Virus record (IMG/VR): IMGVR_UViG_3300030109_001359
Location: 1-38,020 of that record
Strand: one strand, 5' to 3'
Source of the DNA: a virus
DNA length: 38,020 nt
Part shown: positions 4,804-38,020 of the stretch, piece after piece
How the letters are laid out: every line of letters begins with the position of its first letter
How positions within the stretch are numbered: position 1 is the first letter of the stretch
Position numbers and translations under genes: made by a program
The notes under the pieces: model-generated
What the model was told of the DNA's origin: nothing
The model's database searches: none
Seen by the model: only the letters and a program-made list of their open reading frames with translations

Positions 4804-4812
4804 GAGGATGTT

Positions 4813-5124: not shown

Positions 5125-5127
5125 TGC

Positions 5128-5337: not shown

Positions 5338-5338
5338 C

Positions 5339-9614: not shown

Positions 9615-9934
9615 TGTCTAACACATTTGTAAATGCAAAGGTAGACCTGTCTACTACTAACGTAACCACGTTGTACACTTGTGCTGCGCTAACCACTGGT
9701 ATAGTAAAATCTATATTAGTATCGGAAGACTCAGGAAATGCAGATACAATCACTCTTACTATCACCTCTGGTAGTGATGTATTTAGCCTATTTAAGACCA
9801 AAGCTGTTAGTGCAAATGCCACCGTAGAACTACTTTCGGCACCTCTTGTTGTGCAGGCCAGTGAGATATTAAAAGTTACCGCTGCTACAGCCAACCGTTT
9901 ACATGTAGTTGCCAGCATACTAGAGGTGACCTAG
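9614..9934 (+). CDS. Small beta-sandwich-like virion protein
   Basis: The protein is 106 residues, from the ATG overlapping the previous TAA. It is rich in Thr, Val and Ser with alternating hydrophobic residues (IVKSILVSEDSGNADTITL, later NRLHVVASILEVT), as in a small beta-sandwich. Proteins of this type occur among the tail or decoration genes of marine podoviruses. It ends in TAGTG, where the stop overlaps the GTG start of the next gene. A structural role is inferred from position and composition. Confidence 0.7.
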   Translation: MSNTFVNAKVDLSTTNVTTLYTCAALTTGIVKSILVSEDSGNADTITLTITSGSDVFSLFKTKAVSANATVELLSAPLVVQASEILKVTAATANRLHVVASILEVT

Positions 9935-20100: not shown

Positions 20101-23100
20101 TATTCATTTGCAGAACCTTCTTTCCAAAAAGAACTAGCTGATTTACATCTTAGAGAACCTGTCAATCCTTTGGAGAAGTTTTTTAGGATAGTAAGTAATT
20201 TTGTAAGGCGTTTACTTGGTAAACCTGCTATTCGTACCATGTCTGAGTTAGACATGGCTATATTCTCAACGCTTTCGGCAGACAGAAATTTAAGAGACAC
20301 GCAAGCCTATTTCCGTTTGGACCCCGAAAAGACTCGGGCTAATTTAGGTAGAACACAAGAAACCATAAATAAGACAGTAAGGGAAGCAAGTTTTGGAGTA
20401 AGAGATGCGTGGAATGGTCTTACAAGAGGATTACCACAAAAAATAGGACTCATGTTAGTCGGTGGGCAAGGTATGGGCGATATAGCCGCAACACAATCTA
20501 CCGCTTTAGGTGATCTAGCCGCACTACAACATGTAACCATGGAGAAGATGGTAGGAGACTCAGGTAAATCAGATCAAGAAGTAAGAGAAGTAGTGGAGTC
20601 TGTAAATAATTGGGCTAAACAAAGCGGCAGGGCTAAAAAAGAAGCTCTGGATAAACTTATATACCATAGTGAATTTGGTTCAACCATTTATGATGTTAAT
20701 CCTTTCCTTACTAAAAGCGAAGCTATACGACAATATACTGATGATAAAGGCAACCTTGAGTTTGTTGAAAAAGGTGGGGAAACAAAAATTGATATATGGA
20801 ATAAGCAACGTAAGCAAGTAAGAATTATTGGTGCGGGGGGTAAAAAAGCGTACCAAGATATGTTAAATCTGTACAGAAGACAGTTACAAAGAACTATAGC
20901 TGAGATATCCACTGTTACAGACAAAGCTATGGAGACCACCGATAAGGATGGGAAAGTTGTAGCGAATACAGAAGGTATTTCAAAAGTAAAAAAAGTATTT
21001 AAAGAAATACTCGACAGGGCCAATATAGATCAATACTTTCCTTTAACACGAGAGGGTAAATATAAACTAATCTATAACGTGTTAACCGACAAAGATGGTA
21101 AAGCTCTGGTAGATAATAAAGATGCGTATGTAGTAAGACACTTTCAGACAAAAGCTGAACGTGATGAAATTGCTAAGTCATTAAGGGCCGATAAAACTCA
21201 GTTTGATAATGTACGGACAAGTGATGGAAACCTAGATCAGAATACATCTTTCTTTGAGAACGTGCCTCCTTCATCTTTTGTAGCACAGGTTATAGACGAG
21301 TTAAGAAAAGCGAATGTAGATAAGACAGTAGAAGATCAAATAATAGAATTGTTTATAGACCAGTTACCAGAAACATCTTTCGCAAAAAGCATGAAAAGGA
21401 GGAAAGGGGTTGCGGGATTCCAAACCGATTCTATACATGCTTTGAGATCAAAGGCTTTTGATGCTGGACGACAAGTTGTAAAGCTAAAATACAACAGAAG
21501 ATTAAGAGATATAACAAACGATATAGAAGCAGAAAGGAAAAAAATATTAGAAGATAAACCAGACAAAAATGAAGAAACACTCAATACTATTGTAAATGAT
21601 TTAGCTAAAAGGAATGAATTTGCACGGGGTGTGAACATTGACTCTATACAAAGATTAGCTGCCCCCATAAATCAAGGAGCTTTTTTATACACTTTAGGTT
21701 TTAACATATCTTCTGCAGTTGTTAACTTGTTTCAGATACCCATGTTTGCCTTCAGTATATTGGCACCTAAATACGGTGCTTTGAACACTGAAAAAGCTAT
21801 ACGGGATGCTTACAGGACGGTAATGCGTATAGGGTTGTTTAACAGTCCTCCTTTACAAGTTGAAAAGTATTTTAAGATAACCAGAACCCACGACAGTAAC
21901 GGAGTGCCCGTAGAAAGTTTTACTATAAAAGAGGATACCCCTAAAAAACTTAAAGAAGAATTAAATCGCCTTCTACCACTACTGACAGTAGCCAGAGATA
22001 GAGGACAACTTTACCAAACAAATATAGCAGATGCTCTGGGTTTGGATGAAGCGGGGAGGGTAAGTAGAGAGGGTCTTGTTCTACGAATATTAAATAGAAC
22101 TGCCGCTGCTTCAGCAGTTATGTTCAACGCAGGAGAACGTCTTAACAGGCAAGTAAGCTTATTCGCCATATACAATCTTGAAACTCAACGTATGGCAGAT
22201 GAAAAAAAAGTTAGAGTAGAGGATTTAACACCAGAAGAATTAGACGGAGCTGCGAAAGAATCTTTGTATAAAACGCAAGAGGTTAACGGTGGTGCTAGGT
22301 TAGAAACAGGTGCAAGGATATCGCAAAACGGGTTAGGACGTATGGCGTTTATGTACAAAAACTACGGTTTACAAATGTACTACACCATGATTAAAACATT
22401 TATGCAAGCCATAAACTACAAGGATTTAACAGCAGTAGAGAGAAAAATAGCCAGAAACCAACTAGCAACTTTACATTTAGTACCATTACTGTTTGCAGGG
22501 GTAAAAGGTATACCTATATACGGGGCCGTTAAATTACTGGCAGATATAATGATGCCTGATGACGAGGAAGACTTTGATACTCTGGTACGAAAAAATATCG
22601 GTGAAGGTTTTTATAAAGGTCCGTTAATAGCCGCTACAGGTGTAGATATAGCTGATCGAATAAAATTAAATGGACTCGTATTTCAAGAGAATAGGTTTAA
22701 AGATTCTTTTGAAGATTATGGTAGCACGGAAGAGTGGATTGGTTATCATTTTGGTGGACCTGCTTTAAGCACTTTTAAAAGGTTAGGTAGAGGAGGTTCA
22801 GACTTATTTAATGGTGAGATAGAAAGAGGTGTTGAACAAATAACACCACCAGCAGTAACTAATTTATATAGAAATACGTTTGGGCGTTATGCCAGAGAAG
22901 GAGTGCGAACCAGACGTGGTGATCCCATATTTACAGAAATGACTGCGGCAGATCACATTACAAACGCTATGGGTTTTGCCCCCAAAGAACTCACCTTCAG
23001 ACAGGAATTGACAAGACAGGAGCAGAACATATCTGATGAAATAGATAGAGAAAGAACGAGGCTATTAAAAAATAATCATATTAAAAGACGTATGGGTGAC

Positions 23101-23331
23101 TATGAAGCATGGCGTGAAAATTCAAAAGACATTAGAGAGTTTAATAAAAAAGTAAGGCGTAGGTTCCCCAAAGCAGTTATAAGTTTTGACACCTTAGATA
23201 AATCCATGAAGCGGCATAAACAAACTACTCTTGAAATGCACAACGGTGTAAGGGTGTCACCCATATATAAATTAGCATTTGAAAGAAGTAGGCTACAGTA
23301 TATGCAAGGGTTTGATGCTTTATTTGATTAA
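17119..23331 (+). CDS. 2070-aa polyvalent/internal virion protein with HExxH site and LPD38-like C-terminus
   Basis: The N-terminus is a charged helix (ERQRREDRIREIVLAERAR) followed by an Ala/Gly-rich, partly hydrophobic region (about 115-150) that could insert in membranes. A long acidic, charged linker follows. HEMTH at residues 947-951, with EEFVAY about 40 residues downstream, forms a likely zinc metallopeptidase-like centre. From about residue 1500 the sequence (NQGAFLYTLGFNISSAVVNL, later YKNYGLQMYYTMIKTF) resembles the LPD38 domain of giant phage polyvalent proteins. These are thought to be packaged and ejected with the DNA; that role here is inference. It is the last late gene and ends at the convergence point. 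Confidence 0.8.
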   Translation: MASLQEIILEERQRREDRIREIVLAERARRGLPSLPRTSIEDDSGILSNIYSGLVSGATGLFESAALGAAAALEEDAELRSRRKIQAAGESIRESLGADEADEDSIAYKLSAGIGSIGALLPAAALGSAALPVAGAVAAAAGAGEASERARAFGATEDERGAAALRGTLIGATEITPLGKLAKAFQITPIQKVLDKLAPEDITDITSRVQRAGATSLAEGAQEAAAGILQNLNERGYNPTRELIDSGVLEEGLIGAGAGGILQALADVFIKGRARGVTPDDDDTFKETVDDIDLAGTDVITDKEVTTEVDKKLREDPNVQKSFDEGRKLIEEFQSRSGATGTGDRTTDITDEEVSRLLKEAGDKEEVALSAAKTGDVGETTDVITKSAETDETGSGVGVPVTTKTPTGEAVTETAGVVGEGVEPARTDTDSFDVRERDIRPPLKPINLVEDKTPKDQPRMRDAGTGITERGTITYPETIPYGKEELKDTTDREKILSLVTTDPVGKRNQNAKGFFEQFERADDALTAIAEYKIDESKFKESFPTFMDEDGKLITLKSKDDPTLITKEKVEAEPEKYDKTKIETPDPAFADKLAQVTYGKKKAKVTLEEFNNLSPDSTKRKELRRAIMEKFHSEEINPLRELEQKVIGGQGRAFKDAESWVNENLTNQGSKILQVRIGNAKKVKEARGAKEVTKKKTETGVKAGPVFRSPDTIKGLEDSTKARETIAKQPVTETKTKPLNEQLEEDRRDKTKAAIKAVNDASVALENANIKLDRERDPDKRQKLSTQAGAARRVLEKAEKTLSLYIPKGPLSKLTRTQLLQELKEIQKGIDDGTYEVTNLGFGETDIDAQRTVVGYVARKLGTELDTPLSNPQMTAVAKNNLKGLLENISKNAKDKNVQDVAKALLKVAGDTKIRFGGTGAGSYVPSKDTIFINMNNQFGPTVQTVLHEMTHAATILNLQNKSHPVTRQLMNLYKQVKGDLDPNGAGASLEEFVAYSFAEPSFQKELADLHLREPVNPLEKFFRIVSNFVRRLLGKPAIRTMSELDMAIFSTLSADRNLRDTQAYFRLDPEKTRANLGRTQETINKTVREASFGVRDAWNGLTRGLPQKIGLMLVGGQGMGDIAATQSTALGDLAALQHVTMEKMVGDSGKSDQEVREVVESVNNWAKQSGRAKKEALDKLIYHSEFGSTIYDVNPFLTKSEAIRQYTDDKGNLEFVEKGGETKIDIWNKQRKQVRIIGAGGKKAYQDMLNLYRRQLQRTIAEISTVTDKAMETTDKDGKVVANTEGISKVKKVFKEILDRANIDQYFPLTREGKYKLIYNVLTDKDGKALVDNKDAYVVRHFQTKAERDEIAKSLRADKTQFDNVRTSDGNLDQNTSFFENVPPSSFVAQVIDELRKANVDKTVEDQIIELFIDQLPETSFAKSMKRRKGVAGFQTDSIHALRSKAFDAGRQVVKLKYNRRLRDITNDIEAERKKILEDKPDKNEETLNTIVNDLAKRNEFARGVNIDSIQRLAAPINQGAFLYTLGFNISSAVVNLFQIPMFAFSILAPKYGALNTEKAIRDAYRTVMRIGLFNSPPLQVEKYFKITRTHDSNGVPVESFTIKEDTPKKLKEELNRLLPLLTVARDRGQLYQTNIADALGLDEAGRVSREGLVLRILNRTAAASAVMFNAGERLNRQVSLFAIYNLETQRMADEKKVRVEDLTPEELDGAAKESLYKTQEVNGGARLETGARISQNGLGRMAFMYKNYGLQMYYTMIKTFMQAINYKDLTAVERKIARNQLATLHLVPLLFAGVKGIPIYGAVKLLADIMMPDDEEDFDTLVRKNIGEGFYKGPLIAATGVDIADRIKLNGLVFQENRFKDSFEDYGSTEEWIGYHFGGPALSTFKRLGRGGSDLFNGEIERGVEQITPPAVTNLYRNTFGRYAREGVRTRRGDPIFTEMTAADHITNAMGFAPKELTFRQELTRQEQNISDEIDRERTRLLKNNHIKRRMGDYEAWRENSKDIREFNKKVRRRFPKAVISFDTLDKSMKRHKQTTLEMHNGVRVSPIYKLAFERSRLQYMQGFDALFD

Positions 23332-27818: not shown

Positions 27819-28011
27819 TCTCTTCGGTGTCCTTTGCCTTCATAAGCGCATCAGAGACCTCAGATAATCTAAACCTGTAAGTGTTACCTATCTTTAAAAA
27901 AGAATCTTTTGGTAAGTTATCTGTGCGAATCCAAGTTCTTACCGTAGAAATAGATACAGCAAAATGGTCTGCAACTTTTTCAATAGGCACAAATGGTTCA
28001 GCATGTTCCAT
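27811..28011 (-). CDS. Small helix-turn-helix DNA-binding protein (MerR/excisionase-like)
   Basis: The protein is 66 residues. The ATG overlaps the previous stop (TGATG), with GAGG eight bases upstream; a GTG one codon earlier is also possible. The segment PIEKVADHFAVSISTVRTWI is a clear helix-turn-helix, followed by a wing-like GNTYRFRLSEVSDAL, as in HTH_17/excisionase-type proteins. No integrase is in the window, so it is more likely a transcription regulator or replication accessory than an excisionase. It is embedded in the replication operon. Confidence 0.8.
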   Translation of the reverse strand: MEHAEPFVPIEKVADHFAVSISTVRTWIRTDNLPKDSFLKIGNTYRFRLSEVSDALMKAKDTEESA

Positions 28012-28409
28012 CACTTTTTCCTCACTGCAATAATATATTCAGAGTTTACGTTTAGTCCTTGGGGCACTAATTCTGGATTGTCCTCAAGAAACTGTTTAAC
28101 ATTAGATTGATTTAATCGTTTATCAAAAAACTCAGGTACCTCATGCTCTAAAACAAACTCATACATCGCAGACCAATCGGAAGTCCAATAACGTGTTTTA
28201 ACTGACCTATAAAACAAACCTTCAGTAGTCTTGACAGAATCAACTCCGTGGTCGTTACAATACTCTAACAGTGCTTTCTTAACCTGCTCAAGTTGAGCAT
28301 TAAGTTCCTGATCTTCTTCTTTAAACTTCGCAGATAATTCAGCTCGTTTCGCCTTGATCTTTAAATAAATCTTGGTTAGCTTCTCGGCTGATAATTTACC
28401 GTTCTCCAT
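28011..28409 (-). CDS. Gp157-like early phage protein with N-terminal coiled coil
   Basis: The protein is 132 residues, starting after AAAGGAGG. The N-terminal half is a charged coiled coil (KIKAKRAELSAKFKEEDQEL). The C-terminal half has VKTTEGLFYRSVKTRYWTSD, then KRLNQSNVKQFLEDNPELVP and GLNVNSEYIIAVRKK, which I recall from a very common early protein of marine and other podoviruses. Its layout resembles Siphovirus Gp157-type proteins. Exact function is unknown. It overlaps the HTH gene by one base. Confidence 0.75.
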   Translation of the reverse strand: MENGKLSAEKLTKIYLKIKAKRAELSAKFKEEDQELNAQLEQVKKALLEYCNDHGVDSVKTTEGLFYRSVKTRYWTSDWSAMYEFVLEHEVPEFFDKRLNQSNVKQFLEDNPELVPQGLNVNSEYIIAVRKK

Positions 28410-28457
28410 ACATCCTCCTTTAGTATCGAGAAATACAGTTTACTATCAGATAATTAC

Positions 28458-29885
28458 TTAATCAAGTATTTCTTGGTATAAATCTGTAATCTTTGTGTGT
28501 ATGTTAATTCTGTTATCTAACATTGCGTAAACACGTTTTTCTATGTTAGAACCTTGTAGCTGCACCACCGTACATTTGTGGTCTTGTCCTGACCTGTGAA
28601 CACGGGCATTAGCTTGTGCATAAGTTTCTAAACTAGATACTGGCCCCCACCACACCACAGTGTTTGCGGCTGTAAGAGTTATGCCGTGTGCCGCTGCTTG
28701 CGGTTGTATGATTAAAACTTTTGGGTCTCTTTGTTCTTGAAACTGTTTAAATATCTGAGTTCGTTTTGGTGCAGGAACATCACCACGTATTACCTCTGTA
28801 GGTATATATTCTTCACGTAGTTTTTTTGCTAATACGTCTATGACGTGTCTAAAGGCAACAAAGATTAATACCTTTTTACTAGACTCATCGATAACTTCAC
28901 GTAACACCTTGTATCTGTGCTTAATATCAAACTCCAGTGACTCACCACCATCGGTATAAATAGCACCTGCTGATATCTGTAGTAACTTGTTCATGTTTAC
29001 AGCGGCATTAGCGGCAGTAATTTGTTCACCTGCCGCCTCCATAATCATTTTATTTTTTAATTCTTTATAGTATTTAATTTGCTGACGGGTCAATGCTACT
29101 TCTCTTTTAACATACACCATAGGTGGTAAATCCATACACTCATCTTTGGTGTAACGTATCGCAGGTTGTAGCACTCTGTGTACTGTTTTTGTGGCTGTAT
29201 TTCTAGCTTCCCATTTAAAGGCTGTCACCTTGTACATAACTTGATCGCGGAAAGACCCAAAGAATCTCGGTACGCCTAACGGGTTAACAAGTTTAGCTAG
29301 ACCATAGGCATCGAGAGGGCTTTGTGCGGCTGGAGTTCCTGTCATCATCCACAGGCGTGTGTCTGGTTTAAGTATTCTCTTTAACGATTTCCAACGGTTA
29401 GTTTGTGCATTTTTATAGTGAGTGGCTTCATCTACAATAATTAAATCAAACCCAGCTTTGTATAAATCCTCCTCAACAATGGTGATACCATCATAATTTA
29501 TCACTACATAATCAGCATTGTTGGCTATAATTTTCCTTCGTTTTTCTGCTGACCCGTATGCCACATCCACAGTGCGGTGCATGGCAAACTTAAACAGATC
29601 ATCACGCCATGCACTCTCCATAATCGACAGAGGACATATGATAAGAACACGGGATATCTCCCATTGATCTAAGAGATAGTCACTTGCCCAGATTGCACTG
29701 GCTGTCTTTCCTGTTCCTTGTTCGTTGAAGCAGAACGCTTTGTGGTGCGAAGCCAAAAAGTCTGCTGTCTTCTTCTGGTGATCGAAAGGTTGGTGCTTAC
29801 CCGTCCAGTGATAGTCGGTGATCGTCTGAAGTTCATTTGTAGTTACGTTTTCTATTGGCTGATCTGCTTTCGATGCGTATGCCAT
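28458..29885 (-). CDS. SNF2-family DEAD/DEAH-type helicase
   Basis: The protein is 475 residues. Superfamily 2 motifs are in order: I NEQGTGKT (54-61), II VDEATH (151-156), III MTGTP (181-185), a second RecA-like domain with KVLIFVAFRH and VIRGD, and VI ARVHRSGQ (about 427-434). This is the compact SNF2-like helicase common in podovirus replication operons. It would translocate on DNA by ATP hydrolysis, probably in replication or recombination. The start follows GGGAGG, and the first 53 bases overlap the end of the upstream basic protein gene. Confidence 0.93.
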   Translation of the reverse strand: MAYASKADQPIENVTTNELQTITDYHWTGKHQPFDHQKKTADFLASHHKAFCFNEQGTGKTASAIWASDYLLDQWEISRVLIICPLSIMESAWRDDLFKFAMHRTVDVAYGSAEKRRKIIANNADYVVINYDGITIVEEDLYKAGFDLIIVDEATHYKNAQTNRWKSLKRILKPDTRLWMMTGTPAAQSPLDAYGLAKLVNPLGVPRFFGSFRDQVMYKVTAFKWEARNTATKTVHRVLQPAIRYTKDECMDLPPMVYVKREVALTRQQIKYYKELKNKMIMEAAGEQITAANAAVNMNKLLQISAGAIYTDGGESLEFDIKHRYKVLREVIDESSKKVLIFVAFRHVIDVLAKKLREEYIPTEVIRGDVPAPKRTQIFKQFQEQRDPKVLIIQPQAAAHGITLTAANTVVWWGPVSSLETYAQANARVHRSGQDHKCTVVQLQGSNIEKRVYAMLDNRINIHTKITDLYQEILD

Positions 29886-30066
29886 CTTTATTACTACCTC
29901 CCTTCTTCAACGGCTTTTTATGACCTACATCCTTACCTTTACGGTCAACGCCTTTCTTATCCATTTCACGTCTAGCTCTTTGACGTTCCATCCTGTCTTT
30001 ATGTTCTTTTGTACCTTTTTTTGGATTGACCTGTTTCTTTCTATCTTTCGGATTTTTATATGGCAT
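29833..30066 (-). CDS. Small basic protein with degenerate HNH-like motif
   Basis: The protein is 77 residues, starting at the ATG after GGGAGG that overlaps the nuclease stop (TAATG). It is very rich in Lys and Arg. The C-terminal part (GKDVGHKKPLKKGGSN, then SRSANRKRN) aligns by eye with the DHI-PLxKGG...N core of HNH proteins. The first Asp is Gly and there are no zinc-binding cysteines, so nuclease activity is doubtful. It is likely a DNA-binding protein. It lies between a PD-(D/E)XK nuclease and the SNF2 helicase. Confidence 0.65.
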   Translation of the reverse strand: MPYKNPKDRKKQVNPKKGTKEHKDRMERQRARREMDKKGVDRKGKDVGHKKPLKKGGSNKDGIRIESRSANRKRNYK

Positions 30067-30731
30067 TAGTGCCTCCCGTTGTAAATACATTCAGTAACTA
30101 CACAGTGTTTTTTACATAGCCCACTAGGTTTAGGGTTCCAAACATCTATACCATAAGCAGTATGCATATCAGAAACTCTAAGTGCCCATTTACTAAATAA
30201 TGAATCGTAATCTTCTCTAGTATAAGTTCGTTTAATAAGTTCTTTGCACACAACAAACAAGAGTCCAGCATTTATTTTTTGTACTGTTGGGTAGTGAGAA
30301 AAAATAGCCATAGCCATAAGTTCTAACTGTCCTACATCTGCATACTGTGTAGACTTACTGGTTTTATAATCTACTATCCACGCCAGTTCGTCATTTAAAA
30401 TTAATAAATCTACTATGCCTCTATACCAAACTTGATCGTCAAAAAACTTACAAGGGTCTCCTGCATCATCAACACCAAGTCGTAACTCACACAGTTTCAT
30501 ACCTTCTTTCTTATTTAAGTTATCGAGAGCGTCTTTTGCCCAATTAAATTTAAAAGGTAGAGGGGTGTAGTCATTTATATAATTCTCGGCAGCTTTGTGG
30601 AATTGATTACCGTAGAACATAGCAGAGGACATAGGTTCTTTATAATCTTTAATTACACGTAGATGATAAAATTGCTTGGGGCATTGTTCAAATGCCTTCA
30701 ACTTACTGAACGACCAAGGTTCTACACTCAC
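30066..30731 (-). CDS. PD-(D/E)XK exonuclease, Cas4/RecB-like, with possible Fe-S cysteines
   Basis: The protein is 221 residues, read from the GTG that overlaps the upstream TGA (GTGA); a TTG six codons earlier is the alternative. Motifs in order: FSKLKAFEQCPKQFY (C17), GNQFHKAAE (H45), GIVDLLI (D108), IVDYKTSK (D121, K123) and QLELMAMA (Q135), the core of the Cas4/RecB nuclease family. Three further cysteines near the end (C206, C210, C215) together with C17 give the one-plus-three pattern of an iron-sulfur cluster. It likely processes DNA ends in replication or recombination. Confidence 0.88.
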   Translation of the reverse strand: MSVEPWSFSKLKAFEQCPKQFYHLRVIKDYKEPMSSAMFYGNQFHKAAENYINDYTPLPFKFNWAKDALDNLNKKEGMKLCELRLGVDDAGDPCKFFDDQVWYRGIVDLLILNDELAWIVDYKTSKSTQYADVGQLELMAMAIFSHYPTVQKINAGLLFVVCKELIKRTYTREDYDSLFSKWALRVSDMHTAYGIDVWNPKPSGLCKKHCVVTECIYNGRH

Positions 30732-31048
30732 CGCCAGTCCCCAAAACAACCATTTTCGTGGTTGTGAATCGCATATACCATGTAATCCCCCTCTTTACCT
30801 TCACCGATACAAGTTTTGGATTGACACAGGAATAACACAAGAGCACCTGCCACTTCTTCAAAGTGAAATCCATTAGCAGATGCCATATTTTCTGCTTCAT
30901 CATGTAAAACGCAATTAGTACCACCCATATCAGATGCCACGTATTTGGGTATTTGAACATCCCCAACATCCGTGCGTGTATATAAGTCTGTGCCTACCAA
31001 ACGTAAGTCAGTCCCACCGCATTGTGGGCATTTCATTTTAGTGTCCAT
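30728..31048 (-). CDS. Zinc-ribbon protein next to DNA polymerase
   Basis: The protein is 106 residues; its ATG overlaps the polymerase stop (TAATG). The N-terminus KCPQCGG (C7, C10) is half of a zinc ribbon. Further cysteines lie at about 46, 75 and 80 (TNCVLHD, FLCQSKTC) and could complete one. The middle has a helix (DEAENMASANGFHFEEVAG). I do not know the family. The tight coupling to the polymerase suggests a replication partner, but no assignment is possible from the sequence. Confidence 0.7.
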   Translation of the reverse strand: MDTKMKCPQCGGTDLRLVGTDLYTRTDVGDVQIPKYVASDMGGTNCVLHDEAENMASANGFHFEEVAGALVLFLCQSKTCIGEGKEGDYMVYAIHNHENGCFGDWR

Positions 31049-32871
31049 TATTCACATTCCCCGTAGGAATAACCCACACCAGACTCACATGCTATTGGTA
31101 AGCCATCTGCCCACTCAGGAGTTGTACTCATACAAGTTTCAACATACTCCACAGCTTCTTCCATTTCATCTTCTAGTACCATACATACTACTGAATCATG
31201 TACAGTCAATGCAACTTTATATTTAGCACTGATTGCTAACATTTGATCTGCTATGATACAACGTGCGAAAGCCTGACAGACATTCTCTATAACCTTACCA
31301 CCATATAATTTAGTCCGACCATTGCGGGTACGGTAAGTAAATTCTACAGAACCATCAAGTTCCTTATATTCTAAATCGTTATACTTCATCAAAAGACCAG
31401 AGGGTAGTATTATACTAGATTCCCCTGTAGTTTTTATTATGCCATTACGTCCGAAGTTATAAGGCATTTTAGTGTTATGCATATCAATTAACATGCTGTC
31501 AGCTTCGGACCATAAATCTTTTATGTCAGAATTTGTTTTCCTGTATACATCTATAATCCTTCGAGCTTCTTCTAGTTTTATTATCACGCCAAAAGACCGT
31601 AACTGTTGGGCAAACCTTTCTGCCCCCATACCATACCCTGCACCCAGAATAGTAGTTTTACCTACAAATCTTTGTTGCTTAGTAACTTTGTCCTCTGGCA
31701 CTTTATAAATTTTAGAAGCCATTTTCACGTAAACGTCTTCTTTATTGGTAAACGCATCTACTAGGTCATCTTGTTCGGCAAGCCAAGCAAGCACCCTCGC
31801 CTCAATCTGTGATGAATCACAGTCTACAAGTACGTGTCCCTCTGGAGCTAAGATACTTTTTTTAAGTTTTTTACCCTCACCGCGACTGCTTAAATTCTGC
31901 ATATTAATCTTACCGTCTCCGCCCCAACGACCCGTATGTGCCGCATAGTATCTCAGAGGTACAGGTAGCGATCCTCGTTCCGCAATGTCAATAAACCGTT
32001 CAGTGCGTGTTTCTTCTATTGTGCTTTTGTTACCTAACCGTGCTTCGGCTACAGCTTGCACCCTAACGTCTTTATGCACCAGTAGCTCTTTGAAACCGTC
32101 GTCAGTCTTTGCAAAAGCGTAAGTTTCTTTACCCGTGGTAGGACTAACCTTCATAGGAGGTATAACACCCAAGTTCAAAAGCACTTCCGCAAACTTTGGG
32201 TTACTCATTAAATTTTCTTTGTCTATGCCGCAGTTCCAAATCAAGTCCTCCTTATAGTCACGTATTTCCACAAGATAATCTTTAAGTGTGGAGCTGCACA
32301 ATGTAAGTGTAGGATCTATAAACATTCTTAGTGTGGTATCTATGACCTTGAGTTCCTGCTTGGGAAAGTTCTTACCCATACGTTTAAAAAGTTCGTATGT
32401 TAAGTCCACATCATTCACACAATAATCACCATAGCTATCTAGCTCTTCTTCGCTAAAATCTTCTCTTCGCTTACCAATAGCCTCGTGAACCTCTTCTCCC
32501 TTCTGCCCAATCCCGTAAAATTCAGACAGAGCAGAGAGTGATCCGCCAACTTCAACCCCATGTACAGCACGGGCAATGCACAAAGTATCGGCATAGCGGC
32601 TAGGATGAACATCGTAGATCCAAGCAAGAATAGCACCGTCAAACATGGTATTGTGAGCACATAGTATGCTGTTCTTCCAATCAAAACTGTGTAGGTATTC
32701 TTTTGTCTGTTTAAAATTTCCACTAGCCCACTCCGTATCGTTGTTGTTAAGTTTCACACCCACACCTATAACCTCAAAGCGTGAGTCCCTTATATACTCT
32801 TCCGTTGTTAATTTTTTAAGACTATACTTCTTGTCGTAGTACGTCTCAAAGTCTATCGTTATTAAATCCAT
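31048..32871 (-). CDS. DNA polymerase, family A, with 3'-5' exonuclease
   Basis: The protein is 607 residues. The start was set at the ATG before DLITIDFETYYD; a GTG six codons upstream is possible. The exonuclease domain has motif I DFET (D7, E9), motif II AHNTMFDG and motif III CVNDVDLTYEL. The polymerase domain has motif A DSSQIEAR (D352), motif B with R401, K405 and Y413 (RFVGKTTILGAGYGMG) and motif C VHDSVV (H558, D559). All expected catalytic residues are present, so it should be an active proofreading replicase. It is short for a Pol I, as in T7-like phages, and lacks a 5' nuclease domain. Confidence 0.95.
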   Translation of the reverse strand: MDLITIDFETYYDKKYSLKKLTTEEYIRDSRFEVIGVGVKLNNNDTEWASGNFKQTKEYLHSFDWKNSILCAHNTMFDGAILAWIYDVHPSRYADTLCIARAVHGVEVGGSLSALSEFYGIGQKGEEVHEAIGKRREDFSEEELDSYGDYCVNDVDLTYELFKRMGKNFPKQELKVIDTTLRMFIDPTLTLCSSTLKDYLVEIRDYKEDLIWNCGIDKENLMSNPKFAEVLLNLGVIPPMKVSPTTGKETYAFAKTDDGFKELLVHKDVRVQAVAEARLGNKSTIEETRTERFIDIAERGSLPVPLRYYAAHTGRWGGDGKINMQNLSSRGEGKKLKKSILAPEGHVLVDCDSSQIEARVLAWLAEQDDLVDAFTNKEDVYVKMASKIYKVPEDKVTKQQRFVGKTTILGAGYGMGAERFAQQLRSFGVIIKLEEARRIIDVYRKTNSDIKDLWSEADSMLIDMHNTKMPYNFGRNGIIKTTGESSIILPSGLLMKYNDLEYKELDGSVEFTYRTRNGRTKLYGGKVIENVCQAFARCIIADQMLAISAKYKVALTVHDSVVCMVLEDEMEEAVEYVETCMSTTPEWADGLPIACESGVGYSYGECE

Positions 32872-33031
32872 GACTTCCAGTATCTCCACCGTCTACCTGA
32901 TTTTTTATTAATCTATCTAAATACCATCGCGCCTTACGTAAATCCTCTACTTGGTTCCCATGCTTATGCCTCCACCTATGTAGATACTTCTTTACAGAAC
33001 CTTCTAAATAATAACTAAACCCTGCATCCAA
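32846..33031 (-). pseudogene. C-terminal half of a DUF3310-like protein, separated by a frameshift
   Basis: This frame carries GFSYYLEGSVKKYLHRW and VEDLRKARWYLDRLIKNQ, the C-terminal motifs of DUF3310 (nucleotide kinase-like small phage proteins). The N-terminal motif of the same family is at the end of the upstream gene, in the frame one base away, and the two frames overlap at 33015-33031. The only candidate start is a TTG at 33031 behind AAGG. Either the gene is broken, the two parts are joined by +1 frameshifting, or they are made separately. It overlaps the polymerase start. Confidence 0.75.
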
Positions 33032-33269
33032 TTTTACCTTGGTTGTAATGCGGGGGGTGGTTTACATTTTTAAACTCAGTGCGGCTGCAACTTGTTTTAG
33101 ACTCGGTGCGACCAGATGAGACCAGTTCCTCGCCAAAAAATACAGACGTATCTTGATCTGTCTGCACCTCCAAATCTGTCTTAGCTTGTACATCTTTCCA
33201 CGCATTTGATACTGCGTCCCATTGTTCGGGGGTCGCGTCATCGATACTATTTCCTTTTTTCTTAGTCAT
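33015..33269 (-). CDS. DUF3310-like N-terminal half with an acidic leader
   Basis: The protein is 84 residues from an ATG preceded by AAAGGAGGTAGTG, a near-perfect ribosome-binding site; a longer frame from 33341 overlaps the 49-aa gene and was not used. The first 60 residues are polar and acidic. The end is NVNHPPHYNQGKIGCRV and a stop. VNHPPHYNQGKI is the conserved opening of the DUF3310 domain, which normally continues for another ~45 residues; those are found in the next frame (see the 32846-33031 entry). Confidence 0.75.
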   Translation of the reverse strand: MTKKKGNSIDDATPEQWDAVSNAWKDVQAKTDLEVQTDQDTSVFFGEELVSSGRTESKTSCSRTEFKNVNHPPHYNQGKIGCRV

Positions 33270-33411
33270 CACTACCTCCTTTGAATCCGCATAATTTTTT
33301 CTTGAGCCATTTATTGTTAAACTTCTCCAGTGCTTTTTCATTCATAACTTTACGCTTGGCAGTCTGCCGCCACTTGTTACTGCTCACACTACTCACCTGT
33401 TGCCGCCTCAT
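33262..33411 (-). CDS. 49-aa basic protein with FNNKWLKKKL motif
   Basis: This short gene has its ATG overlapping the VRR-NUC stop (ATGA) behind GGAGGAGCT, and its stop overlaps the next gene by 8 bases. The protein is very basic (MRRQQVSSVSSNKWRQ, then KALEKFNNKWLKKKL). The FNN-K/R-WL-K/R-KKL motif recurs in the 39-aa gene at 35199-35318, also near its C-terminus. Coupling on both sides and the recurring motif support a real gene. Function unknown; nucleic-acid binding is a guess from charge. Confidence 0.7.
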   Translation of the reverse strand: MRRQQVSSVSSNKWRQTAKRKVMNEKALEKFNNKWLKKKLCGFKGGSDD

Positions 33412-33683
33412 AGCTCCTCCATAAACGTGTTCATGTTTAACTCATTAACAACCATCGCGCAGCCGCCAGCCATATAAATATCTGATAAGTTCTTTTGCTG
33501 TAATGGCGTAGGTTTGTTCTTACCAGCTTTACATTCGATACCAAAAAATCTACCTTTATGGCACCCGACAATATCCGGCACACCACTTCTCCCATAACCA
33601 CCAGTGGCAGGGAAAAAATAGTAGGCTCCTATTGATTTAAGGTGACGTGATACAGTGCGTTTGACTTTAGCTTCGGGGGTCAT
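33408..33683 (-). CDS. VRR-NUC domain nuclease
   Basis: The protein is 91 residues, the usual size of the stand-alone phage VRR-NUC. It begins MTPEAKVKRTVSRHLKS, the conserved start, and has the catalytic set SGVPDIVG (D), FGIECKAG (E and K) and a Gln a few residues later (TPLQQKN). This PD-(D/E)XK-type enzyme is expected to cleave branched DNA such as Holliday junctions. Its ATG directly abuts the 18-base palindromic repeat, just downstream of a strong terminator; there is no normal ribosome-binding site, only AGGG inside the hairpin arm. Confidence 0.92.
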   Translation of the reverse strand: MTPEAKVKRTVSRHLKSIGAYYFFPATGGYGRSGVPDIVGCHKGRFFGIECKAGKNKPTPLQQKNLSDIYMAGGCAMVVNELNMNTFMEEL

Positions 33684-33700
33684 GGTAGGGGATTCCCTAC
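33683..33700 (-). repeat. 18-base hairpin repeat, copy 1 (abuts VRR-NUC start)
   Basis: TGGTAGGGGATTCCCTAC on the + strand; the + strand T at 33683 is the complement of the A of the VRR-NUC ATG. On the transcript, GGUAGGG and CCCUACC can pair around a 4-base loop, with a 7-bp stem (33684-33701) at this copy. It lies between the terminator U-run and the start codon. Confidence 0.9.
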
Positions 33701-33701
33701 C

Positions 33702-33727
33702 AAAAAAAGGGGGGACGAGTGCCCCCC
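33702..33727 (-). terminator. Strong intrinsic terminator inside the early gene run
   Basis: On the - strand GGGGGG, loop CACTCGT, CCCCCC is followed by seven T residues. It starts 10 bases after the 175-aa gene's stop and ends 18 bases before VRR-NUC. All genes from VRR-NUC to the left lie behind it, in the same direction. Confidence 0.92.
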
Positions 33728-33737
33728 AAGTAGGGTA

Positions 33738-34265
33738 CTACTCTTCGATATAATAAGTCTCTTCGTTGTGGCGTGTTCCAAGCCCTTCAATTTCCTCACC
33801 TTCTTCAAGTAATGATAAACTTGCCATCTTATCTTGAATTTCTACTGGCAACTTATTAATATCATCGTACACAGTGAGTCTTTCGTGGTCAACACATTCT
33901 TTACCAATACAGAGTATTTCGACTCTTTTTGTGGTTTTTGGAGCGTAAACACGATAAAACGTGTTATGTGGTGTCATATCTTCTCTCCTTTTCACGTATG
34001 TTTTTAATTCCTTTACATCACGCATGTTATTAATCCACCCATAGAAAATTTCTCTAGCCATAAAAACATTCTCAGGTTTACCTGTACCATTCCAGAACAA
34101 ACATTTTCCGTGATGTTTTTGCATTTCTTGAAAGTAAAACTTGATTGCCCCGACACCATCCGTAGCAGGGTTTATATCTCCTTCGTCACGCACACCGTCC
34201 ATGTAATCGTATAGCATTGGGACATACATTGGCTTTACATGATTAGTATTTCTCCAGTTAGGCAT
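33738..34265 (-). CDS. Unknown early protein sharing a C-terminal module with its neighbour
   Basis: The protein is 175 residues. The start was set at the ATG overlapping the upstream stop by 8 bases, behind AGAGAAG; a longer frame from 34304 lies inside the upstream gene. It has a Tyr/Met-rich N-terminus (KPMYVPMLYDYMDGVRDEGD), a central GKCLFWNGTGKPENVFMAR and a C-terminus DKMASLSLLEEGEEIEGLGT followed by R-x6-YYIEE. That last module resembles the C-terminus of the 314-aa protein upstream. No catalytic motif is recognised. It is followed by the strong terminator. Confidence 0.7.
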   Translation of the reverse strand: MPNWRNTNHVKPMYVPMLYDYMDGVRDEGDINPATDGVGAIKFYFQEMQKHHGKCLFWNGTGKPENVFMAREIFYGWINNMRDVKELKTYVKRREDMTPHNTFYRVYAPKTTKRVEILCIGKECVDHERLTVYDDINKLPVEIQDKMASLSLLEEGEEIEGLGTRHNEETYYIEE

Positions 34266-35202
34266 GATCGAAATCTTCTCTAGTGATATAGAATAGGTTT
34301 TCATACTTGCGATACCCGACTCCTGTTACGTACTCACCCACATCCACCAGTGATAGCGCAGATAATTTATCCGTAGCGTTATAGGGTAACTCGTTCTGGC
34401 AAAACGTGCTAATTACAGGAAACTCCTTATATTCGTCAGCGTGTTCTACATACCTAAACATTTGCCGTTCTCTTCCCTTATGCCACATAACATGAATAGG
34501 GAGATGCTCAGGTTGATACTCCTGCAACTTAAACGCCTCACTTTCTAAATCCTGTAACGCCAGTAGTTTATTGATTCTGTCGTCAGGCAAAAATGCTTTT
34601 GCTTGGGGAGAATTGGCGAGTTTCCACAGAGTTCCTACCACCCAATGTTCTTCACTGCTATTCCTACCAATTAAAACTCTGCTACTACCAAATAACTCCT
34701 TACTTTGTTCGTATATTTTGTCACTATGATCTTTCTTCGGTAGCCTTTCTTGCTCGCTTATTTCTGCCGCATGCATTTGGTACATGTGAGATAAACTCAT
34801 GCTAGTCAAATAGGTTTTAGCATGTTTTACTATCCGATCCATACTTGAAGATACAAGAAGCCCCGACTTCCAGTAGTCTTGGCTATACTTAGCATTTTCA
34901 ATGAATGGAGACCACACACCATATAAATAGTTGTCGGTACTGTCCTGTAGTTGGTCAAACATTACACCTCCTAATATATAGATATCATCTTCACGATAGA
35001 CAACTGCCATTTTCCGTGTAAAAGCAAACCTAACACCACGTAACTCTCGTTTTAATTTTTCAACTAGCTTTACAAGATTAATATGGTTAGCTAGTGGGGT
35101 TACGTTTACGTCTTGTGGTTGTGCCTTCGCCCATTCCACGGTTTCCAGCATGTTTGATAATACTTTTGGAAAAAAATGTTTTCTAAAATTACGTCTCATC
35201 AT
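34258..35202 (-). CDS. Unknown early protein, 314 aa
   Basis: The start was set at the ATG overlapping the stop of the 39-aa gene (ATGA), behind AAAGGAGAG; the longer frame from 35235 lies inside that gene. The N-terminus is basic (MMRRNFRKHFFPK), then comes REDDIYILGGVMFDQLQD and a helical middle. The C-terminus DKLSALSLVDVGEYVTGVGY is related to that of the 175-aa protein next door. I do not recognise the family. It belongs to a translationally coupled block of three genes bounded by palindromic repeats. Confidence 0.7.
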   Translation of the reverse strand: MMRRNFRKHFFPKVLSNMLETVEWAKAQPQDVNVTPLANHINLVKLVEKLKRELRGVRFAFTRKMAVVYREDDIYILGGVMFDQLQDSTDNYLYGVWSPFIENAKYSQDYWKSGLLVSSSMDRIVKHAKTYLTSMSLSHMYQMHAAEISEQERLPKKDHSDKIYEQSKELFGSSRVLIGRNSSEEHWVVGTLWKLANSPQAKAFLPDDRINKLLALQDLESEAFKLQEYQPEHLPIHVMWHKGRERQMFRYVEHADEYKEFPVISTFCQNELPYNATDKLSALSLVDVGEYVTGVGYRKYENLFYITREDFDHA

Positions 35203-35318
35203 TGTTTCTCTCCTTTTAGTTTCTTTCTCAGCCATCTGTTATTAAATTGTTGCAACTCCTTTTCAAGTCTTTCCCGTTGCCTTCGATTCCGTTCACGGCT
35301 TGCATTACTCTGTGACAT
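35199..35318 (-). CDS. 39-aa basic protein with FNNRWLRKKL motif
   Basis: A short, highly charged protein (MSQSNASRERNRRQRERLEK, then QQFNNRWLRKKLKGEKQ), behind the ribosome-binding site AAAGGAG, which follows directly on the 18-base palindrome. Its stop overlaps the start of the 314-aa gene. The FNN-x-WL-x-KKL motif is shared with the 49-aa protein at 33262-33411. A helical, nucleic-acid-binding peptide is plausible but unproven. Confidence 0.7.
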   Translation of the reverse strand: MSQSNASRERNRRQRERLEKELQQFNNRWLRKKLKGEKQ

Positions 35319-35331
35319 ATCGAGTCTCCTT

Positions 35332-35349
35332 TGGTAGGGGATTCCCTAC
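35332..35349 (-). repeat. 18-base hairpin repeat, copy 2 (supplies the 309-aa gene's stop)
   Basis: TGGTAGGGGATTCCCTAC on the + strand. On the - strand the TAG stop of the 309-aa gene is inside the left arm, and AAAGGAG for the 39-aa gene follows the right arm. Confidence 0.9.
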
Positions 35350-36275
35350 AGTTCTTGGTGTACGTCAATTTTTTTGTTAAATGCAATCTTGTTTATGTAT
35401 CTATTAAAACTGCTACGAAACTTCTTAGCGTCAAGGTATGCAGGGTCATCCCATAAATATTTACCAGCTTCCCGATAATATCTTCTGTTGTCATCACAAT
35501 AGTTCATGTACATGTTGACCACCGTAAGACCGCTTTCCAAGCATGGATCTTCTCCGTTTATACCTAGAGCTTTTGTTGCGTGTTCTTTGAGAGCTTTGGA
35601 TAAGGGTTCAGAGTTTCCTACAATTCCCTCTCTTATATCACCAGTCTCACCACGTAACAATGGAATCATTGTCCACGCCCAATCTGTAAGACGTTTCAAT
35701 TCACCTTTGCTTTTAGCTTTCAATTCTTTATCAACCACAGTCTTAGCAGGTACCCAAGGGCTAGTTATAAGTGCCCAATGGGGGGTGTCACCACTGTCTT
35801 TGTGTAGCCTTTTAAAGGTAATCGTGCGTGTATCATTTTCAGTTGCTTTGGGTAAAAAAGTTTTGTGTAGTTTATCTTTGCCAAATGCAAACTTGTTACC
35901 TTTGTCACGCCACACAATGTATTGCTTGCCGTTTTTAACTTCTAGGAATAAACCGTTGGGTAAAAAGAAGTCTAGGAAACAATATAAAGAATTATGACCA
36001 TAATCCCCATAACCATTAGATATGTGAACATATTCTCCTGTGGCAGTACGTTCCCACCGGATAGCTCTGGCTGTTCTATCCATTATCCAACTACTGTGCC
36101 ACTCCGACCACACCACATATTCATTATCATTCAGACGATCAATGCGCTCATAGTTTCTGCTCCTACAACCCAATGGACGCACATCGTCATCTACCCTTCC
36201 CCTTACGGGTACTATTGATTTCCAATGGTCTTCCGCTTCCTTAAACGTGTTTAGATGTACTCTATACTTAGCCAT
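35346..36275 (-). CDS. Unknown early protein, 309 aa
   Basis: The start was set at the ATG behind AAGGAGAG, just after palindrome copy 3. An in-frame extension to 36335 runs through the palindrome and the upstream gene and was not used. The protein is basic and aromatic (NDNEYVVWSEWHSSWIMDR, RWERTATGEYVHISNGYGDY, NGKQYIVWRDKGNKFAFG), with a helical C-terminal third. No catalytic or metal motif is recognised. It stands alone between two copies of the palindromic repeat, unlike its overlapping neighbours. Confidence 0.7.
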   Translation of the reverse strand: MAKYRVHLNTFKEAEDHWKSIVPVRGRVDDDVRPLGCRSRNYERIDRLNDNEYVVWSEWHSSWIMDRTARAIRWERTATGEYVHISNGYGDYGHNSLYCFLDFFLPNGLFLEVKNGKQYIVWRDKGNKFAFGKDKLHKTFLPKATENDTRTITFKRLHKDSGDTPHWALITSPWVPAKTVVDKELKAKSKGELKRLTDWAWTMIPLLRGETGDIREGIVGNSEPLSKALKEHATKALGINGEDPCLESGLTVVNMYMNYCDDNRRYYREAGKYLWDDPAYLDAKKFRSSFNRYINKIAFNKKIDVHQEL

Positions 36276-36286
36276 TTCTCTCTCCT

Positions 36287-36304
36287 TGGTAGGGGATTCC
36301 CTAC
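36287..36304 (-). repeat. 18-base hairpin repeat, copy 3 (supplies the 74-aa gene's stop)
   Basis: TGGTAGGGGATTCCCTAC on the + strand, extendable to a 7-bp stem at 36288-36305. The TAG stop of the 74-aa gene is in the left arm on the - strand, and AAGGAGAG for the 309-aa gene follows the right arm, as at copy 2. Confidence 0.9.
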
Positions 36305-36525
36305 CCTTGTTGTATGCGCTCCCACGCTTTGTCAATTAGGTTTATCATAGAATCCGACATATCAGACTCCTCGATAAACCCTTCGATTACTGCATCAATA
36401 ACTAACACGGCTTCAGACCACTTCATGCGATTATCTGTAGACGTGTTTTCACAAGAAACATTACTATCCGGTTGTTTTCCTACAGCGGTATTATTGGTGC
36501 CAGTGGTAACATTATCTTCAGTCAC
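36301..36525 (-). CDS. Small acidic early protein, 74 aa
   Basis: The GTG start overlaps the previous stop by 8 bases and follows GAGGAG; a TTG five codons upstream is the alternative. The N-terminal half is Asn/Thr/Ser-rich and probably disordered (TEDNVTTGTNNTAVGKQ). The C-terminal half is one or two acidic helices (WSEAVLVIDAVIEGFIEES, then MINLIDKAWERIQQG). No family recognised. The stop lies in palindrome copy 3. Confidence 0.6.
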   Translation of the reverse strand: MTEDNVTTGTNNTAVGKQPDSNVSCENTSTDNRMKWSEAVLVIDAVIEGFIEESDMSDSMINLIDKAWERIQQG

Positions 36526-36706
36526 TTTTACACTCCTCAATCATCTTACTTGCTAGGTTCCAAGTAATCATAGAACACAGATATGCCAATGCTTTCTCTT
36601 CACCAGAAAACTTCTCAAGGTACTTCGCTAACTCCTCTGGGCTGTCTGGTGTCCAGAACACACCGTTTAGCTCAAACGGATTCTCATCCAGTATTATCTT
36701 ACTCAT
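36518..36706 (-). CDS. Small early protein, 62 aa
   Basis: The ATG overlaps the VWA gene's stop (ATGA) behind GGAGGAG. The sequence begins MSKIILDENPFELNGVFWTP and continues with an acidic helical part (SPEELAKYLEKFSGEEKALA). No family recognised. Coupling on both sides supports a real gene. Confidence 0.65.
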   Translation of the reverse strand: MSKIILDENPFELNGVFWTPDSPEELAKYLEKFSGEEKALAYLCSMITWNLASKMIEECKSD

Positions 36707-37974
36707 TTCATCTCCTCCGATCTTACGTGGACGTACTTGCCCACATTAGGTTTGGCACCCTTGTTGTCAATAATTACCCACAGTACAGGGCAGTACCACT
36801 TAGACCAACCAGAAACGTATCCATCCGTAATGACAATAGCCGCCTGTGGTTTGATCGCTTTCTCCTGCATGTAGTCGGTGACACACTCGACCTCAGTACC
36901 ACCACCACATTTAGGACGAGTAGATGTTACAAAACTATTCATGGTATCCATCGTGTATGTCTCATCACCTACTACTCGTGAACCCCAATAAAGTAATCGC
37001 ACCATGTCAGGTTCCACTGTGTCACAGATAGATTTGATTTCTGTCTTGGCTACGTTCAGTTCCCTGTTACCCACTGAATAAGATGTGTCTACCGCCACCA
37101 CCAGATCCTCTACCTTCTCACTAACACCAGATGGCAAGTAGATGTCCTGTCCAAGTAGTCGCCTGTTAGGACGTGACCACGTACTGTAGTCGTTCCCGGC
37201 ACATGTGGTAGTTACAAATTCACGTAGCACCTCACGCCAATCGACCTGTGTTTTGAGTAAGTCACCAAACTCCAATGCCTCACCGCCACCACCTTTACCT
37301 GCAAGGATGTGTCCCTGCCGTATGGCTTGATCCAGTTCACGTTCCATGTCACGTTGCTCGTCAGGCGATAGTTCCTTACCCTTCCAATCGTGTTCATCAA
37401 ACCCTGCACCTTCACCTTGTTGTTGCTCACCGTCCTCACCATCATCACCACTACCACCACTGGTAGGGGATTCCCTACGGTTCTGTTCATCCTCCTCACG
37501 TTGCTGTTGTAGTGCTTTGAACACCTGTGCCGCTGTCATACCACGAAACTTTGTGTCATAGCATATCTCTACAGACTTAGGTATCTCCAAGAACGGCATC
37601 CCGTCTATAGTCTTAGCACCCTCTGCCTCGTCCATGATCTGTAAGTTCCGCACATGATCGACAGCTTGATTGGCTAGTCGTGGGTCTATCTCCCACAAGT
37701 TCTCCCATGTAGTGAAGTCCCTGTGCATCTTGTGATAGTCCTCATGCACCACAGTAAATCGCAGTGCCGCATCGTTTTCGGCTTCAATAAATTTACGCCC
37801 AAACATACAATCACGTCCGTCGGTACATGCTGTTGGTATATGATCGACCACCTTCTTTTCACCGATCATCAGCACTGGTGCCAGTGCCTTGTACCTGTCG
37901 TGTGACATCACTGCCACCACTGCTTTACTTAGCCGTTGTTCTGGCGTTAGTTCTCTATTACCTATTGCTAACAT
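36703..37974 (-). CDS. Metallopeptidase-VWA protein (DUF2201/VWA-like)
   Basis: The protein is 423 residues, with TAATG overlap to the gene before it. The N-terminal domain has HEDYH at 77-81, an HExxH zinc motif, with further helices as in the putative metallopeptidase of DUF2201-type proteins. A hydrophilic linker (about 160-200, Gly/Glu/Gln-rich) contains a palindrome copy in frame. The C-terminal VWA-like domain has the metal-site motif DTSYS (296-300), a GGGTEVE loop and ITDGY (T383, D384). Such proteins usually act with a MoxR-type AAA+ ATPase; the gene just upstream is cut by the window edge. Role in infection unknown; cofactor-insertion or chaperone-like remodelling is the family precedent. 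Confidence 0.85.
   Translation of the reverse strand: MLAIGNRELTPEQRLSKAVVAVMSHDRYKALAPVLMIGEKKVVDHIPTACTDGRDCMFGRKFIEAENDAALRFTVVHEDYHKMHRDFTTWENLWEIDPRLANQAVDHVRNLQIMDEAEGAKTIDGMPFLEIPKSVEICYDTKFRGMTAAQVFKALQQQREEDEQNRRESPTSGGSGDDGEDGEQQQGEGAGFDEHDWKGKELSPDEQRDMERELDQAIRQGHILAGKGGGGEALEFGDLLKTQVDWREVLREFVTTTCAGNDYSTWSRPNRRLLGQDIYLPSGVSEKVEDLVVAVDTSYSVGNRELNVAKTEIKSICDTVEPDMVRLLYWGSRVVGDETYTMDTMNSFVTSTRPKCGGGTEVECVTDYMQEKAIKPQAAIVITDGYVSGWSKWYCPVLWVIIDNKGAKPNVGKYVHVRSEEMK
37461..37478 (-). repeat. 18-base hairpin repeat, copy 4 (inside the VWA gene)
   Basis: TGGTAGGGGATTCCCTAC on the + strand, same orientation as the other copies. It is translated in frame as part of RRESPTS in the disordered linker between the HExxH and VWA domains. 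Confidence 0.9.
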
Positions 37975-38020
37975 TAGTCGTTCTCCTCGTCGTCTTCTGT
38001 TGTAGGAAAATACACCACGA
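37974..38020 (-). CDS. 3' end of an early gene, acidic C-terminus
   Basis: Only the last 14 codons are in the window, reading VVYFPTTEDDEEND and a TAA that overlaps the VWA gene's ATG (TAATG). By analogy with other phages and bacteria this could be a MoxR-type AAA+ ATPase, but the visible part carries no diagnostic motif. Confidence 0.5.
   Translation of the reverse strand, partial: VVYFPTTEDDEEND

Follow-up and report, generated by a model that had tools for sequence, protein, structure and literature searches.

Genome-specific palindromes dispersed through the early operon of uncultivated phages as candidate operators of a jointly replaced putative regulator

Results

The stretch analysed here (the window) covers 38,020 nucleotides, positions 1 to 38,020 of the 44,263-base viral record IMGVR_UViG_3300030109_001359, and a leftward early operon enters it on the minus strand from the remainder of the record. 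The operon opens beyond the window with a 198-aa gene that we call FIRST (41596-42192 of the record), just downstream of a palindrome copy. Inside the window it includes, all on the minus strand, a DUF2201 metallopeptidase/VWA gene (36703-37974, 423 aa) and fast-evolving genes of 309 aa (35346-36275, downstream of the palindrome copy at 36288), 325 aa (34258-35235, no family) and 188 aa (33738-34304, its stop just before a terminator), followed by the 91-aa gene (33408-33683) for a VRR-NUC/Holliday-junction-resolvase-like nuclease, identified by a match to PHROG 93 (4e-15) and a sub-threshold match to Hjc. The DUF2201/VWA gene forms a pair with a MoxR ATPase gene (L086:1116-2219 in a relative, window 36703-37974, both minus strand); the MoxR ATPase matches N4 gp24-like proteins of Pseudomonas phages, and the pair is perhaps a module that these phages share with N4-like phages. 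Elsewhere in the window, the plus strand encodes a 2070-aa protein (17119-23331) that resembles PHROG 10089 (DarB-like antirestriction) in its C-terminal part and weakly matches the DUF6782 metallopeptidase family. Two further plus-strand genes (12050-13144 and 1887-3346) carry long repeats, AE-rich ones with a period of 18 bases and a repeat unit of 216 bases.

Where the operon meets VRR-NUC, the minus strand reads, in order, the stop codon of the 188-aa gene (33740-33738), an intrinsic terminator, an 18-base palindrome and the VRR-NUC ATG. The terminator (33727-33702) consists of a 6-bp GC stem, GGGGGG at 33727-33722 and CCCCCC at 33714-33709, around a 7-nt loop, and ends in TTTTTTT at 33708-33702; the palindrome, GGTAGGGAATCCCCTACC on the gene strand, fills exactly the 18 bases 33701-33684, an operator-like site that abuts the ATG at 33683-33681. 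This is the arrangement described in the original prediction, six G, six C and seven T followed by 18 palindromic bases and the start codon, and the sequence agrees with it. In a scan of 28000-38020 the terminator came out as the top of 11 terminator-like sites (shuffles 6.2 +/- 2.5). The prediction had further held that the terminator leaves no room for a promoter and that the only candidate ribosome-binding site is AGGG in the hairpin arm. Both statements were borne out: the minus-strand scan found no sigma-70-like site between the terminator and the ATG, and AGGG in the 5' arm of the palindrome is the sole purine-rich stretch, 11 nt from the ATG and within a predicted hairpin of -15 kcal/mol. 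No Shine-Dalgarno sequence separates the palindrome from the ATG, and the sequence offers no alternative in-frame start between the upstream stop and the ATG.

Across 96 distinct VRR-NUC upstream regions of relatives, a strict terminator is present in 6 (random control 0.6%), an SD-like sequence in 73 and a CCAGTN motif in 50 (random 12.6%). The order terminator-palindrome-SD-ATG recurs in three relatives (L045, L064, L076), several further relatives have a palindrome and then a GC hairpin at this position, and it is common for the operon's final palindrome to stand directly before VRR-NUC. The window's junction combines a palindrome common to its relatives, a terminator shared with a minority of them and an unusual lack of a Shine-Dalgarno sequence, the last of which may be an assembly error. 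We found no near relative covering this junction; the near-identical contig L207 retains the palindrome before FIRST, and its VRR-NUC junction was not recovered. According to the original prediction, homologues with a ribosome-binding site of their own would speak against it, and with strict terminators in so few regions and SD-like sequences in so many, the family as a whole is of this kind.

The palindrome at VRR-NUC is one of a genome-wide set, not a local device. The record contains eight perfect copies of GTAGGG-n4-CCCTAC, all within 33685-42232 and inside the leftward early operon; GTAGGGRATYCCCTAC occurs seven times, and the eighth copy, at 40691, has the centre AATA/TATT. Allowing up to three mismatches on both strands gives 9 matches where 0.16 are expected. 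A weaker ninth copy lies near 41232, and positions 1-33000 of the window hold none. Besides the copy at 33685, which lies against the VRR-NUC ATG, exact copies are found in the window at 35334, 36289 and 37463, and further copies beyond it at 39233, 40463, 40691 and 42217. Six of the eight (35334, 36289, 39233, 40463, 40691 and 42217) precede a Shine-Dalgarno-like stretch and an ATG. One of these (35334-35349, minus strand) overlaps the stop of the upstream gene and stands before a small ORF with AAAGGAG and ATG, and another (36288-36305, minus strand) stands before AAGGAG and the 309-aa gene. The copy at 37463-37478 (minus strand) lies within the DUF2201 coding sequence, in a linker where it reads RESPT; this linker carries a copy in a relative (L041) too. 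An origin as a host or generic mobile repeat was considered and rejected: the 18-mer form occurs in one viral contig (L001, in coding sequence) and four bacterial/archaeal genome contigs, which we take as chance.

Do other phages carry such sites? In a first set of 164 loci, most of them found by way of VRR-NUC, PolA and DUF2201 and many on short contigs, 51 contain one palindrome family in three or more perfect copies, and the spelling varies by phage (GTTAGTGnnnCACTAAC, GTTAGGGAATTCCCTAAC, GTATGGGGAAACCCATAC, TTCGGGCAGGTGCCCGAA, GGTAGTCCACGGACTACC and others). To avoid selecting on the palindrome, new loci were fetched via MoxR alignment; none of these 79 has fewer than three copies, 77 have four or more and the median is 7, whereas of 79 Markov shuffles 0 reach three, and adding 26 operon regions from the earlier loci, which were partly palindrome-selected, gives 105 of 105. 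The copies occupy syntenic slots at gene junctions, before the first gene, p297, MoxR, DUF2201 (or inside it), variable genes and VRR-NUC. Within the 79 loci, 117 of 426 distinct copies, or just 27%, lie at most 40 nt before an SD-preceded ATG (random positions 5.7%), and in the earlier, selected set an ATG-initiated ORF lies within 30 nt of 94 of 175 copies (random positions 24.6%). The closest cultured relative by PolA, at 35%, is Rhizobium phage RHph_TM3_14A (L171 / L287, MN988472.1), a distant relative with the same replication genes and many TTACC-n-GGTAA palindromes in early and late genes, which may be unrelated to the present system. The KPP25 and Rollin stretches contain no palindrome family of three or more copies, and a three-copy set in PH1 (TTAGTT), unequally spaced, was rejected as chance.

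Other sequence elements accompany the operon in relatives. A family-wide second motif, GANRCCAGTT, frequently with a TCGCGCCGAGCC-like stretch behind it, occurs in 2-4 copies just after FIRST and again before VRR-NUC in many relatives (for example at about 4207 and 4285 of L086, minus strand, and at L191:10057-10230, L177:14751-14930 and L258:5789-6020); its spelling, unlike that of the palindrome, is constant between phages. Directly after FIRST, L086 also has a second terminator-like hairpin (4572-4589, minus strand), GGGGGG TTTCGA CCCCCC followed by ATCTTTTAAG. No Rfam family was matched in the operon; two matches to RF03012 (Mu-gpT-DE) fall in the structural region of relatives (L191:617-669 and L177:5124-5176, both minus strand).

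Two sets of close relatives differ in their palindromes. The structural genes of G003 and G004 have an identity of 98.3% over 9.0 kb and the operon one of 91-97%, and their MoxR and DUF2201 proteins are 100% identical. Each of the seven aligned palindrome slots differs, AGTTAGGGAATTCCCTAACT against GGTAGTCCACGGACTACC, most of them within almost unaltered flanks. The nucleotide match breaks off at FIRST (G003 9232-9800), whose two proteins have no BLAST match to each other. Before FIRST, the copy of one genome and that of the other flank a common stretch from opposite sides, and the slot before p297 is filled in G004 and empty in G003. Two further ORFs are without a counterpart in this comparison, a small one and one of 311 aa that follows VRR-NUC. 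A second case sets L241 and L243 against L255: identity is about 93-95% on both sides and is lost from 4334 or 4509 to 5782, FIRST included, and the palindrome differs at all five slots compared. The palindromes and FIRST have thus been replaced jointly in otherwise similar genomes.

We compared FIRST similarity with palindrome identity over the 218 pairs that reach a MoxR similarity of 0.8 (231 before same-virus pairs are taken out), many of which are non-independent: it was below 0.25 in 103 of 104 pairs with different palindromes and at least 0.25 in 88 of 114 pairs with the same palindrome. At a MoxR similarity of at least 0.9 with near-duplicates removed, the AUC for FIRST was 1.000, on just 10 pairs (4 same, 6 different), and six other genes including MoxR gave 0.26-0.68; at 0.8, again without near-duplicates, FIRST and p297 were equal, with an AUC of 0.786 each. 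A partial Mantel test (16 genomes, 15 usable) gave 0.14 for FIRST (p=0.17) and 0.33 for MoxR (p=0.033), and the nearest neighbour predicted the palindrome in 22 of 27 cases by FIRST, 21 of 27 by MoxR and 22 of 27 by p297. Three probable wrong gene picks (L229, L276, G006) were excluded from the nearest-neighbour test and included in the pair and AUC analyses. L213/L214 and L218 share a palindrome class and have dissimilar FIRST proteins (0.11). Whole-family correlations do not single out FIRST, and its assignment therefore rests on the swap pairs and on the position of the gene; on this footing, FIRST is likely to be the cognate regulator of the palindromes.

What kind of protein is it? Searches with Pfam and PHROGs found no transcription factor among the operon proteins, and 15 FIRST members gave no convincing match, whether to a recognisable DNA-binding domain or to any other family. 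An early BLAST search matched the FIRST protein of the window's record to G001 only, a weak lead by itself; weak BLAST links join 44 of 58 FIRST picks, the record's own included, in one cluster, the remainder forming small groups or singletons; at least three of the 58 picks, those named above, are probably wrong genes. The FIRST alignment shares a patch, RYxQQQIGARxxDxKxxLxKR, and AlphaFold models of L258 (pLDDT 90.6) and of the record's own protein (84.3) agree in an all-helical layout and in the order of the helices. Foldseek searches with these models found no convincing match in the PDB (best E 2.3) or among viral models (best an uncultured Caudovirales protein, E 0.12). VIA-align returned two chains with Z of at least 5, the best 5.6 over 46 residues and likewise not convincing; helical bundles often give higher Z values than this. 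No match to a tyrosine or serine integrase (PF00589, PF07508) was found in 20 records, which are possibly fragments.

The palindromes themselves look more like DNA sites than RNA structures. The unpaired centre, 4 nt here, ranges from 0 to 7 nt across 105 regions and is 0-2 nt in 56 of them, too short for an RNA loop. Among 177 near copies, some of which may be chance, single arm mismatches are G.T in 7 and A.C in 7, and double arm changes are paired in 4 and unpaired in 5; an RNA stem should favour G.U, and the equal counts show no wobble bias. Arms stay constant while centres drift, and asymmetric centres occur in both orientations inside one genome. Given the tight centres, the lack of wobble bias and the use of both orientations, we favour two-fold symmetric sites in double-stranded DNA.

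Discussion

Our best reading of these palindromes is that they are stoperator-like operators of an autogenous phage regulator, and the copy at VRR-NUC is, we think rather probably, one of eight operators for a phage-encoded protein, most likely FIRST. FIRST, made early at the head of the operon, would bind the palindromes as a dimer, damp its own operon at its start, presumably by repression rather than activation, and also act as a road-block (a stoperator) at each downstream junction; as it accumulated, the early block would shut down. Of all the junctions, that at VRR-NUC would be the tightest, because the site lies directly after an intrinsic terminator and on the start codon, and VRR-NUC would then be expressed either by read-through or by slow initiation at the ATG.

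Several other explanations have to be weighed against this one. The original prediction was of a local antitermination switch, in which the terminator and palindrome at VRR-NUC delay the replication genes. The terminator is indeed strong and real, its order with palindrome, SD and ATG is kept in three relatives, and the place retains the look of a regulatory junction ahead of the replication genes, with no normal ribosome-binding site here and the last palindrome of the series, as is common in the operon, just before VRR-NUC. The palindrome itself, however, is no part of a terminator switch: it belongs to a set of eight, the majority of which precede genes with a good Shine-Dalgarno sequence, the same palindrome precedes genes that have no terminator, and a strict terminator is rare upstream of VRR-NUC in the family (6 of 96). 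We consider such a switch unlikely as the explanation of the junction, although it and the operator reading could be true together. Similarly unlikely is a role as RNA hairpins in the polycistronic mRNA, placed by ribosome-binding sites as translational operators, processing sites or insulators for a phage RNA-binding protein. Most copies in this genome do lie just 5' of a Shine-Dalgarno sequence and ATG, the predicted hairpin is strong (-15 kcal/mol), and the centre length differs by one base in several genomes; but more than half of the regions have perfect arms where a loop would be needed (centre 0-2 nt in 56 of 105), mismatches have no G.U bias (7 vs 7), arms are fixed while centres drift, and copies also lie within coding sequence and in a divergent start region.

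Might the palindromes instead be mobile or selfish repeats, or recombination boundaries, spreading within each genome without a regulatory role? Slots do gain and lose copies between close relatives, as before p297 in G004 and G003, and centres occur in both orientations. Yet the arms are uniform while the centres drift, phages whose spellings are unrelated keep the slots in syntenic places, and window positions 1-33000 are free of copies; in the swap pairs, moreover, the flanks match and the palindrome differs, the reverse of what a recombination anchor would leave, on which ground we rejected the boundary idea, and we regard this whole class of explanation as improbable. More improbable still are N4-like hairpin promoters for a phage RNA polymerase, which would give each gene its own start after an upstream terminator. 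Genome-specific repeats in tight gaps before SD and ATG would resemble phage RNA polymerase promoters, a terminator is followed by a palindrome at VRR-NUC, and the operon carries an N4 gp24-like ATPase. N4 promoters, however, have a 5-7 bp stem whose 3-base loop must contain particular bases, according to the portions of PMC4496689 consulted, whereas centres here are 0-7 nt long and drifting, and copies lie inside genes and in both orientations; a PF00940 polymerase was found in 0 of 20 records, a weak argument, as control genomes gave no match either.

A bolder form of the operator reading can be put forward tentatively, and we would sooner doubt it than adopt it: FIRST may belong to a new all-helical DNA-binding family without known fold relatives that acts through dispersed palindromic operators, with regulator and all operators switching specificity together in DNA that is otherwise 91-98% identical. 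This might amount to an immunity-like incompatibility without detected lysogeny genes, or operators might even be actively written across the genome. The breadth of the phenomenon, a large group of uncultivated phages in which 79 of 79 loci fetched by one gene carry a palindrome family, adds to its interest. The swap pairs amount to natural experiments in which nearly identical phages have undergone a joint change of the putative regulator gene and the sites. They open two questions to test: by what route a regulator and its many target sites come to a new specificity in step, and why phages in which no lysogeny genes are seen should diversify their regulation.

How do these palindromes compare with known systems? 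We found no paper describing this palindrome/FIRST system in the open-licence literature, where absence is no proof. Like an intrinsic (rho-independent) terminator, the junction at 33727-33702 has a GC-rich stem and a T run, but the palindromes themselves lack T runs apart from the VRR-NUC junction. They differ from an RNA-hairpin translational operator in that the stem is not kept by wobble or compensatory changes and that so many centres are too tight for a loop. The promoters of the N4 virion RNA polymerase are likewise short inverted repeats ahead of early genes; in the part of PMC4496689 that describes them there are three, with a fixed 3-base loop, and they need a giant polymerase, whereas the palindromes here have no fixed 3-base loop.

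A closer likeness is to the SAS/ESAS elements of cluster K mycobacteriophages, which, in the sections of PMC3203893 that treat them, are confined to the non-structural half, near the start codons of a subset of genes; there the inverted-repeat consensus differs by subcluster and is read as marking sites of DNA-binding proteins with different specificity. Inverted repeats near starts in the non-structural half, with a consensus varying between subgroups, are found here as well. SAS is, however, an asymmetric 13-mer and the ESAS arms are imperfect 17-mers with spacers mostly of 4-13 bp (same passages of PMC3203893), whereas the phages studied here have one compact palindrome, mostly 13-23 bp, that is replaced jointly with a gene.

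The nearest parallel is the stoperator system of cluster A mycobacteriophages such as L5 and Bxb1, in which, as set out in the relevant passages of PMC6550527 and PMC9283540, one repressor has 20-30 sites genome-wide, many in short intergenic spaces, and relatives that differ in site consensus differ in repressor specificity too. Here too the putative repressor sites are dispersed in short intergenic spaces, eight in this genome and a family of its own in each of 79 of 79 relatives, with FIRST as the candidate repressor. A joint change of sites and FIRST is seen in G003/G004 and in L241-L243/L255, but the whole-family statistics are non-specific for FIRST. Cluster A stoperators, by the same passages (PMC6550527, PMC9283540), are asymmetric 13-mers oriented with transcription and bound by a monomeric HTH repressor in temperate phages. 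The sites here are palindromes used in either orientation, the candidate regulator stands at the head of the early operon and has no recognised DNA-binding domain, and no integrase was found in the 20 possibly fragmentary records. Since the sites are not asymmetric, we do not class this as a stoperator system, though it would work like one. It would be a system of the dispersed-operator kind with a co-diverging regulator already known from temperate mycobacteriophages, following the same logic, with symmetric sites and a candidate regulator of no known protein class.
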